NCBI RefSeq assembly: GCF_017347585.1
Contig: NZ_AP024480.1
Location: forward strand, 300,001-364,000
DNA length: 64,000 nt
Reading direction: 5' to 3'
From: Caldicellulosiruptor diazotrophicus
Lineage (GTDB): Bacteria; Bacillota; Thermoanaerobacteria; Caldicellulosiruptorales; Caldicellulosiruptoraceae
Every line of letters begins with the position of its first letter. The stretch's first letter is position 1. The notes beneath the pieces are model-generated. The model was not told the origin of the DNA and did no database searches. It saw only the letters and a program-made list of their open reading frames with translations. A program made the translations under genes and the position numbers. This document shows positions 3,855 through 64,000 of the stretch, piece by piece.

Positions 3855-5027
3855 ATGGATATTAACAGGTTTAAAGAAGATATAAAAAGTCATCTTGATG
3901 AAAAGATAATACCATTTTGGCAAGGTTTAAAGGATGACGAATTTGGTGGCTACTATGGATATATGGATTTTAATCTCAATATTAATAAGAAAGCTCAAAA
4001 AGGTTGTATTTTGAACTCGAGGATATTGTGGTTTTTCTCAGCATGTTACAATGTGCTGAAAAGTGAAAAATACAAAGAGCTGGCTTTTCATGCGTTTGAA
4101 TTTTTAAAAAACAAGTTTTGGGACAAAGAGTATGAAGGACTTTTCTGGAATGTATCCCACAAAGGTGTGCCCGTTGATGTAACAAAACATGTTTATGTTC
4201 AGGCTTTTGGCATATACGGACTTTCGGAGTATTATGAAGCATCTGGCGATAAAGAAGCTCTTCGTTTGGCAAAGAGGCTTTTTGAGATTTTGGAGACAAA
4301 ATGCAAAAGTAAAAATGGATATACAGAGCAGTTTGATAGAAACTGGCAAGAAAAAGAAAACAGGTTTTTGAGCGAAAATGGACTAATTGCCTCAAAAACA
4401 ATGAACACGCATCTTCATGTACTGGAGAGCTATACAAACCTCTACAGGATTTTAAAACTTGATGATGTGTATGAGGCGCTTGAGAGGATAGTTAGACTCT
4501 TTGTTGACAAGATTTACAAAAAAGGAACAGGTCACTTCAAGGTATTTTGCGATGACAACTGGAACGAACTTATAAAAGCAGTATCATATGGACATGACAT
4601 TGAAGCAAGTTGGCTTTTAGACGAAGCTGCCAAGTATCTGAAGGATAAAAAGTTAAAAGAAGAGGTTGAAAAGATCACATTAGAGGTTGCACAAGTGACT
4701 TTAAAAGAAGCCTTTGATGGTCAAAGTCTCATAAACGAGAAGGTAGAAGACAGGGTTGATAGAAACAAAATCTGGTGGGTTGAGGCAGAGACAGTTGTTG
4801 GATTTTTTAATGCATATCAAAAGACAAAAGAGGAAAAATATTTAGATGCAGCCGTCAAGACATGGGAGTTCATAAAAAATCATCTTGTTGACAGAAGAAA
4901 GAACTCTGAGTGGCTGTGGATGGTAGATGAGAATTTAAAAGCAGCTAAAATGCCAATTGTTGAGCCATGGAAGTGCCCGTATCATAATGGCAGAATGTGT
5001 TTGGAGATAATAAAAAGGGTTTACTAA
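3855..5027 (+). CDS. Cellobiose 2-epimerase (AGE superfamily)
   Basis: A 390-residue cytoplasmic enzyme that converts the reducing-end glucose of cellobiose to mannose (and lactose to epilactose), and can act on beta-1,4-mannobiose. The sequence follows my memory of the characterised C. saccharolyticus epimerase with the same length. It keeps R56, the N184/H186/H188 cluster, H247, E250, W372 and H377; H247 and H377 are the catalytic acid/base pair known for this family. It opens an operon with a LacI regulator and a GH130 phosphorylase. That placement points to mannobiose to mannosyl-glucose conversion, or cellobiose epimerisation, ahead of phosphorolysis. The AAGAAGG ribosome site lies ~10 bases before the ATG. 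Confidence 0.95.
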   Translation: MDINRFKEDIKSHLDEKIIPFWQGLKDDEFGGYYGYMDFNLNINKKAQKGCILNSRILWFFSACYNVLKSEKYKELAFHAFEFLKNKFWDKEYEGLFWNVSHKGVPVDVTKHVYVQAFGIYGLSEYYEASGDKEALRLAKRLFEILETKCKSKNGYTEQFDRNWQEKENRFLSENGLIASKTMNTHLHVLESYTNLYRILKLDDVYEALERIVRLFVDKIYKKGTGHFKVFCDDNWNELIKAVSYGHDIEASWLLDEAAKYLKDKKLKEEVEKITLEVAQVTLKEAFDGQSLINEKVEDRVDRNKIWWVEAETVVGFFNAYQKTKEEKYLDAAVKTWEFIKNHLVDRRKNSEWLWMVDENLKAAKMPIVEPWKCPYHNGRMCLEIIKRVY

Positions 5028-5044
5028 AAGTTTCGAGCCTGACC

Positions 5045-5074
5045 CTGTAAAGTTACAGAGAAATAAAGTATAAT
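5045..5074 (+). promoter_or_regulatory. Inverted repeat and -10 upstream of LacI gene
   Basis: CTGTAA-AG-TTACAG (5045-5058) is a 6-bp-arm inverted repeat placed 10 bases before a TATAAT box (5069-5074). It sits where a -35 element would be, suggesting an autoregulated promoter for the LacI gene inside the epimerase operon. No good -35 is seen. The bound protein is inferred, not shown. Confidence 0.5.
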
Positions 5075-5129
5075 AGTAAGTAAAAAAGAAAAGGTTTGTG
5101 AAGCCTTATTTGAAGGGGAAAAAAGTACA

Positions 5130-6137
5130 ATGAACAAGAGAGTTACTATGAAAGATATTGCCGAAAAGCTTGGTGTTTCTAAGGTAACAGTGTCAAAGGC
5201 GCTCAAGGACAGTCCTGATATTAGTTCATCCCTGAAAGAGAAAATTATAAAGACTGCCCAGGAGATGGGTTATATCTACAACGCAAAAGGAAGGATGCTG
5301 AGAGAAAACCTTACGTATTCTATCGGTGTGATATCGTCAGAAAAGTATTATGGCAAAGACGACTATTTCTACATAGACCTTTACAAACATCTTTCAAACA
5401 GTTTAGAAAAACTTGGCTTTACAACAACCTTCAACATTATAAGCCAGTCAGACGAAAATGATCTTTCTGTACCTAACGCGCTTTTAGAACAGAAGGTAGA
5501 CGGTGTTGTTATTTTGGGTCAGATGAGTCTTGACTACATTCAAAAGATTTTAAGTTATAATTACCCGACAGTGTTTTTAGACTTTTACTGTGACAAGTTT
5601 AACGTTGACTGTGTAATTACAGACAACTTTTACGCAACATACGAGATAACCAACATGCTAATAGAGCAGGGTCACACCCAGATTGGGTTTGTAGGAAACA
5701 TCTACGCAACAAGCAGCATTCAAGACAGGTTTCTGGGCTTTTACAAGGCGCTTTTGGAGAACAAGATAGATCTCAACAAGGATTGGATAATAAAAGACAG
5801 GGATGACAACAACAATTTCATAGATATTATATTGCCCAAAAACCTTCCAACGGCATTTGTTTGCAACTGTGACAAGACTGCTTATCTTACAATAGAAAAG
5901 CTCAAATCAAGAGGATATAAGGTGCCGGATGATGTTTCAGTGGTGGGGTTTGATGATAGCCTTCATGCAGTGCTTTCACAGCCCAAAATTACCACCGTCC
6001 GTGTGAATTTGGAAGAGATGGGTAGAAGAACAGCCAAGATGATGGTTGAAAAGATAAAGCAGGGAGAAAAGCATTATGGCAAAATGCTCATAAAAGGCAA
6101 GATTATTATAAGAGAGTCTGTCAAGGCTTTGAAATAA
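5130..6137 (+). CDS. LacI-family transcriptional regulator
   Basis: A 335-residue repressor. An N-terminal LacI helix-turn-helix (TMKDIAEKLGVSKVTVSKALKD, about residues 6-27) is followed by the hinge helix and a periplasmic-binding-protein-like sensor domain ending in GFDDSLHAVLSQPKITTVRV. It lies between the cellobiose epimerase and the GH130 phosphorylase, so it probably controls uptake and breakdown of beta-mannosides or cello-oligosaccharides. Likely binding sites are GTGAACGATTAAG near 3804 and the inverted repeat at 5045-5058. The effector sugar cannot be read from sequence. Confidence 0.93.
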   Translation: MNKRVTMKDIAEKLGVSKVTVSKALKDSPDISSSLKEKIIKTAQEMGYIYNAKGRMLRENLTYSIGVISSEKYYGKDDYFYIDLYKHLSNSLEKLGFTTTFNIISQSDENDLSVPNALLEQKVDGVVILGQMSLDYIQKILSYNYPTVFLDFYCDKFNVDCVITDNFYATYEITNMLIEQGHTQIGFVGNIYATSSIQDRFLGFYKALLENKIDLNKDWIIKDRDDNNNFIDIILPKNLPTAFVCNCDKTAYLTIEKLKSRGYKVPDDVSVVGFDDSLHAVLSQPKITTVRVNLEEMGRRTAKMMVEKIKQGEKHYGKMLIKGKIIIRESVKALK

Positions 6138-6208
6138 TACTTTTTCAAAATGGTCGGATAACATTTTAAATTCGCATAAATCAAAAAATATGGAGGAGGA
6201 AAGAACTA

Positions 6209-7195
6209 ATGGATATCAAAATAATAGGGCAATCACTTCCAAACATGCCTTGGGAAGAAAGACCTAAAGACTGCAAGGACATTGTATGGAGGTCTAAACA
6301 CAACCCAATTATCAAGAGAAATCAGGCAAAAGATGCAAACAGCATTTTCAACAGTGCGGTTGTTCCATTCAAAGATGGTTTTGCAGGAGTTTTCAGGGTG
6401 GATGATAAAGCGAGAAGAATGAACATCAGACGTGGGTTTAGCAAGGATGGTTACAACTGGGAGATTGATGATGAACCAATCAACTTCATCCAGCAGACAA
6501 GAGACCCGCTTGTAAGTGAGTACAAATATGACCCACGAGTAACTTTCATAGAAGATAGATTCTATATCACATGGTGCAATGGCTATCATGGTCCGACAAT
6601 TGGTGTTGGCTATACATTCGACTTTGAAAAGTTCTATCAGATTGAAAATGCGTTTTTGCCATACAACAGAAACGGTGTGCTTTTCCCGAGGAAAATAAAT
6701 GGCAAATACGCTATGCTATCCCGCCCATCAGATACGGGGCACACACCATTTGGTGACATATTCTACAGCGAAAGCCCTGATATGATTCACTGGGGCTGCC
6801 ACAGACATGTAATGTCAGCAGGCTACACACCTTGGCAGTCGCTCAAAATAGGGGCAGGGCCAACACCAATTGAAACAAGCGAAGGATGGCTGCTAATTTA
6901 TCATGGCGTACTTCTTTCATGTAATGGATATGTATACAGCTTTGGTGCAGCGCTTTTGGATTTGGAAAAACCATGGGTTGTAAAGGCAAGGTCAAAATCT
7001 TATCTTCTTTCACCACAAGAGTATTATGAATGTGTTGGCGATGTTCCAAACGTTGCATTCCCATGCGCGACACTTTGCGACGCCAGCACGGGTAGGCTTG
7101 CAATTTATTATGGTGGTGCTGATACTGTTGTAAACCTTGCTTTTGCTTATGTTCAGGATATAATTGAACTTCTCAAAAAAGAGAGCCAGGAATAA
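6209..7195 (+). CDS. GH130 beta-1,4-mannoside phosphorylase
   Basis: A 328-residue five-bladed beta-propeller enzyme of family GH130, which cleaves beta-mannosidic bonds with inorganic phosphate to release alpha-mannose-1-phosphate. The YDPRV segment carries the probable catalytic Asp (D108). Basic residues in FSKDGYNW and SRPSDTGH fit phosphate and sugar binding. The length matches the shorter GH130 subfamily (beta-1,4-mannooligosaccharide phosphorylases) better than the ~390-residue mannosylglucose phosphorylases, but substrate choice is not settled. With the epimerase upstream it completes an intracellular route for mannan-derived disaccharides. GGAGGAAAG lies 5 bases before the ATG. Confidence 0.9.
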
Positions 7196-16850: not shown

Positions 16851-17013
16851 ATTACTAGCGTTTTCAAAAAGCTTTTGCTTTTAAAATGCTTTTTTAAAAA
16901 AGAATAAAAGCTTTTAAAACAATGTATGACAAGGGCTAAAAAAGAACAAAACACCCCTCCGGTCTTTACCACCTTGACTGTACTTCCCACCGAAGACAGT
17001 ACAAGGCATCTCA

Positions 17014-17232
17014 AACAGGCAGGTCTCCTGGCTCGCACCTCATCCAAAACCCTCTTTGGCCTTCCCAGAAGGCAAGCCCCACTTTTCAGGAGAGGAACCC
17101 AACCTTCCAGTGGCAAAAGTTTATTGAGGGCTTGTCAGTGCTCACAGTAGCGGGGGCTGCAGCGGATTTTCACCGCTTTCCCTATTAAGCCGCCAAATGG
17201 CAGCACCTGCTTGATAGGTAAAGGTGCCTATC
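17014..17232 (-). promoter_or_regulatory. Cobalamin (adenosylcobalamin) riboswitch
   Basis: On the minus strand the region carries the hallmarks of the B12 riboswitch in order. These are AGGTGCTGCC...GGCGGCTTAATAGGGAAAGC, the core GTGAAAATCCGC, the B12-box-like CAGCCCCCGCTACTGTGA, GCCACTGG...GGGAAGGC, and the closing GAGCCAGGAGACCTGCC. It sits about 270 bases upstream of metE with a terminator between. Ligand binding is expected to favour termination and repress the B12-independent enzyme. Confidence 0.93.
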
Positions 17233-60359: not shown

Positions 60360-61427
60360 TTATATTACGAACAAAATAACATAAAAGGTTGTCAATAAAA
60401 CCAGACCTATAGGAAAACCAAATTTAACCCATTCTTTGCTCTTTATTTCGAGTTTATTTGCCGCAATAATATTTGGAATGTTTCCTTGAATGAGCATTCC
60501 ACCACTTGCTAAGAGACTGATAAGAATAGCAGTTACTTGGCTTGAGGTAAGTTTTGGGCTGATTATAGCAGCTGCAACTGTTGCATTATCTAAAACGGCA
60601 GATATAGTATTAAGCCAAAATAATAACTTGTCACCAAGCTTTACAATGTATTTGTCTATAAACGGTTTAAATCCATTTCCTAAGATCTCTAATGCCACTA
60701 TAAACAAAAATATTTTACCTGCTCTTATCACTACATCTTTGTGTGTTTCAACTTCTTTTATATGCTGATCTTCTATTTCAAAATACTTTCTGTCTTCTTC
60801 AGACATCTCTTCTTTTCTGTAAAAGAATTTTTTTTCTCTTTTAGCAATAAAGCTTCCAAGTAAAGCCATGACAAGTATCACAGGTATAATATAGTGACCC
60901 ACAAGACGAAGGAGATAAGCAAAATCCTCTTTCAATATACTTACAACAATTGTAGAAAGAGGTTCGCCAATTGGTGTTAGCGCAGCGCCAAAGCCAATTG
61001 CGTAGCACCCAGCAATTGCAACTTTTGATTTTGATGAATGTCTCAAAGGTAGCAGATGTAATATTTCTACCATTATCAGTGTTGCAACAATAGCAGTAAT
61101 TACGCTTGAGAAAAGTCCCAAGATTAACAAAACCAAAAATATAAAGATTTCAAGGTTTATCTTGCTAAGTAAAAGGTTAATAGCATTTTTAAGCTTGTTA
61201 ACCGAGAGATTAAAGAAAAAGCCCATTATTAAAACTACTGCAGTGACAACATAGAGAAGATAATTTGAGAGAATATGTCCAATCAAATGCACAGATAAAG
61301 TTCTTGAAACGATTGTTGCCAAAATTCCCATGAAAAAAAGAAAAATTTCTAAATTGTGCTCCACCTTTTTAAACACGAATGGCAAAATGAAAACAAGAGC
61401 TAAGATTAATATCAGCAAAAAGTCCAT
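60360..61427 (-). CDS. DUF1646-family cation transporter (putative)
   Basis: A 355-residue integral membrane protein with about ten spans, matching the DUF1646 group of ion-transporter-superfamily proteins (FGAALTPIGEPLSTIVVSIL and NTISAVLDNATVAAAIISP are distinctive, with GGMLIQGNIPNIIAANKL near the end). Resemblance to NhaD/ArsB-type antiporters suggests Na+/H+ or anion exchange; the substrate is not shown. The ATG at 61427 follows GAGGAG. The longer reading frame upstream overlaps hepT and is rejected. It follows the TA pair after 4 bases. Confidence 0.82.
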   Translation of the reverse strand: MDFLLILILALVFILPFVFKKVEHNLEIFLFFMGILATIVSRTLSVHLIGHILSNYLLYVVTAVVLIMGFFFNLSVNKLKNAINLLLSKINLEIFIFLVLLILGLFSSVITAIVATLIMVEILHLLPLRHSSKSKVAIAGCYAIGFGAALTPIGEPLSTIVVSILKEDFAYLLRLVGHYIIPVILVMALLGSFIAKREKKFFYRKEEMSEEDRKYFEIEDQHIKEVETHKDVVIRAGKIFLFIVALEILGNGFKPFIDKYIVKLGDKLLFWLNTISAVLDNATVAAAIISPKLTSSQVTAILISLLASGGMLIQGNIPNIIAANKLEIKSKEWVKFGFPIGLVLLTTFYVILFVI

Positions 61428-61431
61428 GTCA

Positions 61432-61866
61432 TCACTCCTCATTAAAAATTTTGCTTGAAATCTCATTCCAAAACAGTTCAAAATCACCAAGATTGTTTTG
61501 GAGGATTTCATATAAAGTTTGGTTGTCTACCTCAAGATACAAATGAACAATTCTGTTTCTAAATTTCACCATTCGGATTAATTTTTCTGCTAAATTAGTT
61601 GAAATATAACTATTTTCAAGCAAAATTTTGATGGTATCAGAATAACTTGAAGGCTTACCTAATTTTTTTCTTGAAACGATATGATTGCATATATCAATAA
61701 TAGCTTCAATTGATGTTTGTAATAGATACTTACAACTTGTGATATTCCTAAAATCAGCAATGAAATCTTGGTAAATTAATTTTTTGAGCTGTTCAAGTTT
61801 TGATAAACATTCTCTGATATATTTCATTTTCAAGGAAATTTTGTCTAAGTCAAGGTTGTTTTGCAT
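61432..61866 (-). CDS. hepT: HepT toxin (HEPN domain RNase)
   Basis: A 144-residue HEPN-fold toxin (DUF86). It is mostly helical with the catalytic motif RNRIVHLY (R-x4-6-H-x-Y) near the C-terminal third. HepT cleaves RNA and is silenced when MntA attaches AMP to the motif Tyr. The ATG at 61866 lies inside the end of mntA (17-base overlap), the known gene order. Both motifs look intact, so the pair is probably active, unlike the other TA loci here. Confidence 0.88.
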   Translation of the reverse strand: MQNNLDLDKISLKMKYIRECLSKLEQLKKLIYQDFIADFRNITSCKYLLQTSIEAIIDICNHIVSRKKLGKPSSYSDTIKILLENSYISTNLAEKLIRMVKFRNRIVHLYLEVDNQTLYEILQNNLGDFELFWNEISSKIFNEE

Positions 61867-62290
61867 GATTACTCGACTCCTTTGATAGTGAAGCTTTAAA
61901 ATCTTCCCAAAAAGCCTTGTAGAAATATTCATGGTCTTGATATAGGTCTAAAACCTGCTCTTCAAAATCTGCAACTTTTTTAAAATCTCTTTCAAAAATT
62001 TGTCTTCCTTCACTGATTGTTTTAAACTGCAAAGTAAGTGGTGCCTTATTTAAGTTGACGATGTCAACCATATCAGTTTCAAGTATTTCACAAATTTTAA
62101 TTTCAATGTCAATCTCTTCGAAAATGCTCATATCTTTGTCAAATAGAATTGCCAAATCTATGTCACTGTCTTCTGTTTGAAATTCTGTTCCATATGAGCC
62201 TATTATCCATACACCCAGTATTTCAGGTGTTGAGCTAAAATATTCAATTAGTTTTGGCAATTTTGATTCTACGTTCAACACAGAAAACAC
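61850..62290 (-). CDS. mntA: MntA antitoxin (minimal nucleotidyltransferase)
   Basis: A 146-residue nucleotidyltransferase-fold protein with the motif GSYGTEFQTEDSDIDLAILF (GS-x10-DxD) and a third acidic strand DMVDIVNLN. It adds AMP to the HepT Tyr, neutralising the toxin. A GTG start follows AAAGAGG at short spacing. It is encoded before and overlaps hepT. The C-terminal region continues into a helical tail ending NHAKQP. The 218-base stretch upstream to 62508 shows nothing else I can name. Confidence 0.88.
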   Translation of the reverse strand: MFSVLNVESKLPKLIEYFSSTPEILGVWIIGSYGTEFQTEDSDIDLAILFDKDMSIFEEIDIEIKICEILETDMVDIVNLNKAPLTLQFKTISEGRQIFERDFKKVADFEEQVLDLYQDHEYFYKAFWEDFKASLSKESSNHAKQP

Positions 62291-62916: not shown

Positions 62917-62964
62917 GTTTTTGTACCAGAAAAAATAAAGTAAAGATAGTCTTGTACTCCTTTT

Positions 62965-63096
62965 GAAAAGCTGAATTCCCAAGTGAACCTTGGGATACGG
63001 GGGACCCAATTTTTCTTGGGGTGAATCAGAAGCCAAAAGCTTCTGTAGGGCTAACCCTTTCGGCCCGAACCCGTCAGCTAACCTCGGAAGCTTTGA
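62965..63096 (+). promoter_or_regulatory. c-di-AMP riboswitch (ydaO/yuaA type)
   Basis: The order of conserved blocks matches the ydaO aptamer. They are GAATTCCCAAG...CTTGGGATACGGGGGACCCAATTTTT, then GGGGTGAATC, a variable stem AGAAGC-CAAAA-GCTTCT and GTAGGGCTAACCC. GGCCCGAACCCGTCAGCTAACCTCGG follows. AAAGC and GCTTT close P1. It lies 160 bases before the aminomutase start with a terminator between, so c-di-AMP is expected to turn the gene off. Confidence 0.9.
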
Positions 63097-63165
63097 AAGG
63101 GGAGGCAAAAGGAGTTTTTTTATGCCTTTTTTGAAAAAGGAAGGTATTCCTTTGCCTTTGATTTC

Positions 63166-63213
63166 AAAGCAGCCAAATTCCGAGGTTATGGAGTTTGGCT
63201 GCTTTTATTTTTG
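63166..63213 (+). terminator. Riboswitch-controlled terminator
   Basis: AAAGCAGCCAAA and TTTGGCTGCTTT form a 12-bp stem with further TCC/GGA pairing around GAGGTTAT, and TTTATTTTT follows. It is the likely off-state of the c-di-AMP switch. Confidence 0.85.
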
Positions 63214-63258
63214 CTGATAAGCCTGTGTGTCAAGATTTTGAAAGGAGGTATCTAGCAA

Positions 63259-64000
63259 ATGGAAACGTTAGATGTTGTTAACAACAGAGAAAGGTTCGAA
63301 AAGTTAAAAGAAGCAATTCAAGACTACTTAGATGTCAAAGACACAATCAAAACTGGTATAGAGGATGAGGAAAAGATTGAATATCAAAAAAGAAAGATTC
63401 TTACCTACTTTGGTGCAAGCGAAAAAGACTGGGAAAATTATAAATGGCAGCTGAAAAATAGGATTTCCTCAGCCAAAATATTAAAAGAACTTTTAAATCT
63501 TGATGAAAAAGAAGCACAGCAAATAGAAGAAGTAGGAAAGATTTATCGCTTTGCAATCTCGCCTTACTATTTATCGCTAATTGACCCAGATAATCCAAAC
63601 TGCCCAATAAAAAAGCAATCAGTCCCAAGCTTATTTGAGCTGATAGAAAAAGGAGAGCTTGACCCAATGGACGAAGAGCACACATCACCTACAAAGATTA
63701 TTACACAGCGCTATCCAGACAGGCTCATAATAAAAGTGACAAACATTTGTGGTATGTTTTGTAGGTTTTGTCAGAGAAGAAGGCTCATTGGCGAGACTGA
63801 CACACACGCATCCTTAGATGATATTACAGATGCAATAGAGTATGTGGCACAAAACCATCACATTCGAGATGTACTTATCACAGGTGGCGATGCACTGATG
63901 CTATCTGATGAGATTTTAGAGTGGATTTTGAGGTCTTTGCGCCAGATTCCTCATGTTGAGATAATCAGAATTGGCACACGAGCACCTGTGACTTTGCCAC
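63259..64000 (+). CDS. KamA-family amino acid 2,3-aminomutase (partial)
   Basis: The first ~247 codons of a PLP/radical-SAM aminomutase; the gene runs off the window end. The N-terminal helical part is followed by the SAM cluster motif CGMFCRFCQRRR (C-x3-C-x2-C), then DVLITGGDALMLSDEILEWILRSLRQIPHVEIIRIGTRAPVTLP, as in lysine 2,3-aminomutase and glutamate 2,3-aminomutase. PLP-binding residues lie beyond the window. AAAGGAGG lies 10 bases before the ATG. Control by c-di-AMP suggests a role in osmolyte (beta-glutamate or beta-lysine) supply; the substrate cannot be fixed from this part. Confidence 0.88.
   Translation, partial: METLDVVNNRERFEKLKEAIQDYLDVKDTIKTGIEDEEKIEYQKRKILTYFGASEKDWENYKWQLKNRISSAKILKELLNLDEKEAQQIEEVGKIYRFAISPYYLSLIDPDNPNCPIKKQSVPSLFELIEKGELDPMDEEHTSPTKIITQRYPDRLIIKVTNICGMFCRFCQRRRLIGETDTHASLDDITDAIEYVAQNHHIRDVLITGGDALMLSDEILEWILRSLRQIPHVEIIRIGTRAPVTLP

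Follow-up and report, generated by a model that had tools for sequence, protein, structure and literature searches.

The gene for a glutamate 2,3-aminomutase (EAM) in the thermophilic, biomass-degrading bacterium Caldicellulosiruptor diazotrophicus is preceded by an RNA leader of the c-di-AMP (ydaO/yuaA) riboswitch family, and a second member of this family, elsewhere on the chromosome, abuts a gene whose product is most probably a Re-citrate synthase. We think it probable that the leader is an OFF switch through which c-di-AMP restrains eam, that β-glutamate made by the enzyme serves as a compatible solute, and that the switch on the synthase is released at the same time. Repression by c-di-AMP of an osmolyte pathway that starts from an aminomutase has already been proposed and tested for ablA (White et al., 2022; PMC9337991); the synthase as a paired c-di-AMP target is possibly the new part.

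The c-di-AMP riboswitch leader of eam

A sequence-only reading of the window (the whole stretch of DNA analysed, 64,000 nucleotides, positions 300001-364000 of the main contig) had described a ydaO-type aptamer and a clear terminator in front of an aminomutase gene. Both are present. The aptamer match spans the full RF00379 model (positions 1–134) and scores far above its gathering score of 38 bits; the earlier location was right, although the start given then, 62965, lies six bases inside the Rfam match. The terminator has a stable stem followed by a U-rich tail (Table 1).

Table 1. The eam leader and gene in window coordinates
Feature	Position	Strand	Basis or remark
c-di-AMP (ydaO/yuaA) riboswitch aptamer	62959..63107	+	Rfam RF00379, 100.9 bits, E 8.7e-23
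Switching strand TAACCTCGGAA	63079..63089	+	3' part of aptamer (P1 region); 5' strand of antiterminator
Linker hairpin GGCAAAAGG ... CCTTTGCC	63104..63156	+	between aptamer and terminator; predicted fold
Intrinsic terminator with U-rich tail (expression platform)	63166..63212 (stem 63166-63205)	+	~ -25.9 kcal/mol
Antiterminator 3' strand TTCCGAGGTTA	63178..63188	+	within 5' half of terminator; complement of TAACCTCGGAA
eam ribosome binding site AAGGAGG	63242..63248	+	sequence; conserved in genus
eam, 5' part	63259..64000	+	ORF cut by window end; stop at 64485 (window numbering)

The switching strand closes the P1/core region within the aptamer, and its complementarity to the antiterminator 3' strand is perfect over 11 nt. 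Because this part of the aptamer complements the 5' half of the terminator, c-di-AMP should turn eam off. The aptamer/terminator and antiterminator pairings are mutually exclusive, and both strands are retained in 12 Caldicellulosiruptor genomes: the switching strand is unchanged in all 12 of the aligned leaders, every one of which also has the terminator, and the antiterminator 3' strand differs in two genomes (G007 and G009), which have TTCCGGGGTTA instead, an A to G change that retains the pairing as G-U. The linker hairpin is likewise conserved throughout the genus, and its inner stem has undergone a compensatory change (ATGCC/GGTAT to ACGCC/GGCGT). At distant EAM loci an automatic search for antiterminators returned mostly short pairings at chance level, and we therefore claim exclusive pairing for the Caldicellulosiruptor leaders only.

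The closest known arrangement is the tandem Na+-I/c-di-AMP riboswitch of ablA in Dehalobacter sp. CF (PMC9337991). In both leaders an RF00379 aptamer is followed by a terminator, and one strand of the aptamer holds the 5' arm of that terminator; both also stand before a gene for a 2,3-aminomutase that yields an osmolyte or an osmolyte precursor. They differ in that the Caldicellulosiruptor leader is a single c-di-AMP switch without a Na+ aptamer, and in that its target is a glutamate rather than a lysine aminomutase; no Na+ aptamer in tandem with the c-di-AMP aptamer was found within the 64-kb window, even at a loose threshold. The Dehalobacter switch was shown in vitro to be OFF. That the present one should instead turn its gene on, or be a degenerate remnant, is very improbable, given that the same layout is OFF in Dehalobacter, that the exclusive pairings with the 3' strand of the aptamer are conserved, and that the switch is conserved over the whole family. 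On the sequence of the leader, then, the RNA is expected to bind c-di-AMP and to repress eam. The RNA class and the OFF logic put forward in the sequence-only reading have withstood the tests that might have refuted them, with repression itself a prediction. The genome encodes one diadenylate cyclase (DAC) domain. It also includes a second contig of 3.5 kb, which over 81% of its length is 80% identical to a plasmid from Caldicellulosiruptor bescii, in keeping with the genus.

Several other elements lie in the window. A DUF1646 membrane protein gene (60360-61511, minus strand, 384.8 bits) is found ~1.5 kb from the c-di-AMP switch. Proteins of this type are the usual partners of Na+-I riboswitches and are proposed to be Na+/H+ antiporters; no Na+ aptamer was found near this gene. 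Overlapping its frame is a pair of genes for a HepT-like RNase and an MNT-type nucleotidyltransferase (61432-62290, minus strand), typical of HEPN/MNT toxin–antitoxin systems. A cobalamin riboswitch is present at 17001-17225 (minus strand, 121.9 bits).

The enzyme and its predicted substrate

The complete eam gene (L004:8260-9486) encodes a protein of 408 aa, which had been described as a lysine/glutamate aminomutase of the KamA family. The family assignment stands, and within it the evidence points to glutamate. The protein scores 678.4 bits against TIGR04368 (glutamate 2,3-aminomutase), exceeding the curated cut-off of 650, and falls below the cut-offs of the models for lysine 2,3-aminomutase (AblA; 470 against 525 bits), EpmB (TIGR03821; 221.8 against 369.3 bits) and arginine aminomutase. 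When it is compared with the lysine 2,3-aminomutase (LAM) structure 2a5h, the three cluster cysteines (CxxxCxxC, here CGMFCRFC) and the PLP lysine (equivalent to Lys337) are retained, while Asp293 is replaced by Lys and Asp330 by Asn. In 2a5h these two aspartates grip the side-chain amino group of the substrate. Lys/Asn as against Asp/Asp at these positions separates 80 named relatives cleanly into EAM and LAM, truncated members excepted. By model scores and residues, then, the gene product is a glutamate 2,3-aminomutase of the radical-SAM type and neither a lysine aminomutase nor EpmB, and it is predicted to convert L-glutamate to L-β-glutamate.

These results bear on the kind of osmolyte that might be made. 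The enzyme is related to AblA, and ablA lies under a c-di-AMP switch in Dehalobacter (PMC9337991), so that an aminomutase supplying N-epsilon-acetyl-β-lysine, as in the AblA/AblB pathway of methanogens, might be envisaged. We regard this as extremely unlikely: the substrate residues are Lys/Asn and not Asp/Asp, the AblA model is not satisfied, no c-di-AMP switch was found at any of 55 LAM loci, and AblB, which the sequence-only reading had suggested looking for beyond the window end, has no match above the cut-off anywhere in the genome (the best is a GNAT at 26.7 bits, against 205). Lysine aminomutase was accordingly ruled out as the riboswitch target by substrate residues and model scores. 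Of the β-amino-acid osmolytes first suggested, acetyl-β-lysine is thus set aside and the idea of β-glutamate survives. An EpmB-type protein or an aminomutase of lysine fermentation had been named as outcomes that would tell against that suggestion; the former does not agree with the TIGR03821 score, and as to the latter, the flanks of eam hold the HepT/MNT pair, DUF1646 and a capsule/S-layer cluster and no fermentation genes.

Spread of the switch–eam pairing and a second switch

The c-di-AMP switch lies directly upstream of eam in all 13 genomes of the family. A sample of 398 genomes from the phylum included ~140 with EAM, and 110 EAM loci, from ~95 genera, were fetched. An aptamer on the same strand was present 59–429 bp upstream of the gene (median 169 bp) in 51 of these loci, representing ~24 family labels; by chance, ~0.03 would be expected per 110 genes (same strand, <=430 bp upstream, at ~3 switches per 2.6 Mb). 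Rfam confirmed 19 of 20 positives that were checked, the exception being L142, and found a switch in none of 20 checked negatives. Among named loci the switch occurs at 5 of 25 EAM genes and at none of the LAM genes (Fisher p 0.002). On a tree of EAM proteins (133 rows) the switch label requires 11 changes, against a mean of 43 when shuffled. The association of switch and eam is, on this distribution, an old one with some gains and losses.

The switch is missing from slightly more than half of the EAM genes sampled. In many of these (for example L131, L132 and L175) the next gene is dprA-like or encodes an NMT1-type solute-binding protein. Since so many genes are switch-less, some with DprA or NMT1-like neighbours, other roles or regulators for EAM are possible. 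At two switch-bearing loci, L009 (2501-2821) and L172 (3681-3946), a Na+ aptamer lies just upstream of the c-di-AMP aptamer, so that the Dehalobacter type of tandem does occur at eam; these two leaders are candidate two-input gates. Na+-I riboswitches have been listed for eam before, with reference to β-glutamate (PMC9337991). The enzyme and the proposed osmolyte are alike in that case and in ours, with the difference that Na+ acts there as an ON signal, whereas c-di-AMP would act here as an OFF signal; L009 and L172 have both aptamers.

No downstream gene is common to all switch-bearing EAM loci. Only near relatives (64–71% identity) have a citrate-synthase-like gene in common after eam, and the counterpart of this gene in C. 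diazotrophicus has a c-di-AMP switch of its own. The whole 2.6 Mb genome contains three RF00379 matches: that of eam; one preceding a gene for an SH3-NlpC/P60 protein, a wall protein of the type that is a classical target of c-di-AMP riboswitches; and one, outside the window, abutting a gene for a 454-aa HMGL-like enzyme. The last is of the Claisen-condensing type, related to homocitrate and isopropylmalate synthases and below their equivalog cut-offs, and it presumably resembles the characterised Re-citrate synthases of C. kluyveri and Syntrophus. No Si-citrate synthase was found in the genome; among 119 genomes, one of 11 carriers of the HMGL-like family also has a Si-citrate synthase, a tendency in the expected direction that is not significant (p ~0.1). 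Re-citrate synthases are frequently misannotated as homocitrate or isopropylmalate synthases (PMC12016533). Because no Si-citrate synthase was found, the scores lie below the cut-offs of the related synthases and such misannotation is common, the protein is most probably a Re-citrate synthase. A paralogue 71% identical to it, near nifH and amtB, has no c-di-AMP switch.

In Caldicellulosiruptor, eam and the HMGL-like gene lie apart, each with a separate c-di-AMP switch. The HMGL-like gene stands behind eam under one switch in Thermoclostridium caenicola (L007), L010, L011, G012 (a related genus) and G048 (L195), and is fourth in an eam run of four genes in a Ruminiclostridium MAG (L028). The Caldicellulosiruptor switch before the synthase is differently built from that of eam: the Shine-Dalgarno sequence, AAAGGGAGG, lies within the 3' tail of the aptamer, where it complements CCCTTTC, also in the aptamer, and the start codon follows directly. 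From this position of the Shine-Dalgarno sequence we infer that the second switch likely controls translation and not termination. With a switch on the synthase, and the synthase downstream of eam in six loci, c-di-AMP may gate both the supply of glutamate and its conversion.

Part of the genus has a third, shortened synthase paralogue of 333 aa (L093:4692-5693, minus strand), which lies near aconitase, isocitrate dehydrogenase and nif genes. In one related genome (L224, G007:C1:502300-504400) an insertion of ~1.7 kb parts the aptamer and Shine-Dalgarno sequence from the synthase start codon; read by eye, it appears to carry a TnpB-type (IS200/IS605-like) gene.

Proposed c-di-AMP control of β-glutamate synthesis

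We propose the following mechanism. When c-di-AMP is high, with turgor and K+ sufficient, the ligand would keep the switching strand within the aptamer, the eam terminator would fold, and translation of the synthase would be blocked by the second switch, which overlaps its ribosome-binding site. Under hyperosmotic stress or K+ limitation c-di-AMP would drop, the switching strand would pair with the antiterminator 3' strand, no terminator would form and eam would be transcribed, with the synthase released at the same time. The synthase would then channel acetyl-CoA together with oxaloacetate into the route to 2-oxoglutarate and glutamate, and EAM would turn glutamate into β-glutamate, itself the most likely end product and used as a compatible solute, so that an acetyltransferase would be unnecessary.

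β-Glutamate is an anionic osmolyte, metabolically static, that balances K+ (PMC1224877), and in Moorella an eam transcript rises under stress (PMC7835215). A point against an osmolyte role for EAM is that the route to β-glutamate in methanogens is reported not to involve a glutamate aminomutase. In Caldicellulosiruptor, surveys that do not mention eam found no known compatible-solute pathway except those for glutamate and proline (PMC8557575; PMC3003633); pathways for betaine, ectoine, trehalose, DIP and mannosylglycerate are reported absent (PMC8557575), and the osmotic response of the genus has been called unstudied (PMC7071700). Also against an osmolyte role, Caldicellulosiruptor is osmosensitive, and β-glutamate is not reported for the genus in the literature searched.

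The switch and the enzyme could also be real and β-glutamate an intermediate, in amino-acid catabolism or as a building block of wall, capsule or secondary metabolites, rather than a bulk osmolyte. The capsule/S-layer cluster begins on the same strand 168 bp downstream of eam, and no intrinsic terminator was found between; that cluster, however, has a promoter-like site of its own (11 of 12), and the genes downstream of switch-bearing EAM do not belong to any single wall or capsule class. Wall genes also lie under c-di-AMP switches, here that of the SH3-NlpC/P60 protein, and the L028 operon includes alanine-racemase-fold and D-Ala-D-Ala-ligase-like genes; yet no fermentation or NRPS/PKS genes adjoin eam, and the Na+ aptamers that stand in tandem at L009 and L172 suggest a link to salt. 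On balance we consider such an intermediate unlikely. The two L028 genes, the second of them for an ATP-grasp protein, lie at 4218-6332 of that locus, with eam on one side and the citrate-synthase-like gene on the other; their products might modify β-glutamate or make a wall precursor.

With β-glutamate taken as a solute, the system differs from the ydaO/yuaA switches on ktr, kdp and wall-hydrolase genes, with which it shares the RNA family and the expected OFF logic, in that its target is osmolyte synthesis and not K+ import or wall remodelling. It also recalls the action of c-di-AMP on pyruvate carboxylase in Listeria and Lactococcus, and through DarB in B. subtilis (PMC8822347). There c-di-AMP limits the carbon that passes through the TCA cycle towards glutamate, as it is predicted to do here; in the pyruvate carboxylase case control is at the protein level and on oxaloacetate supply, whereas here it is predicted at the RNA level and on a Re-citrate-synthase-like gene. 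In the open literature searched we found no c-di-AMP riboswitch associated with either eam or a citrate synthase; eam might already figure in the gene-association tables published by Nelson (2013) and by Block (2010).

A broader reading can be offered tentatively, as somewhat short of an even chance: Re-citrate synthase and EAM may form a module under c-di-AMP riboswitches in thermophilic and cellulolytic clostridia, with β-glutamate an overlooked solute of Caldicellulosiruptor and a widespread output in Clostridia. That this module is one operon in some lineages and is split in Caldicellulosiruptor, with a transcriptional switch on eam and a translational one on the synthase, we put forward with the same reserve.

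For Caldicellulosiruptor, whose osmosensitive strains are of interest for biofuels, the finding offers a candidate answer to the question of which solute, if any, these strains make under salt. The occurrence of the switch at 51 of the 110 sampled EAM loci suggests that β-glutamate synthesis is among the commoner outputs of c-di-AMP in Clostridia, which bears on the unexplained β-glutamate in gut metabolomes (PMC12502400). If the link to citrate synthase is true, c-di-AMP would govern the entry of carbon into glutamate at the RNA level, in parallel to its control of pyruvate carboxylase at the level of the protein.
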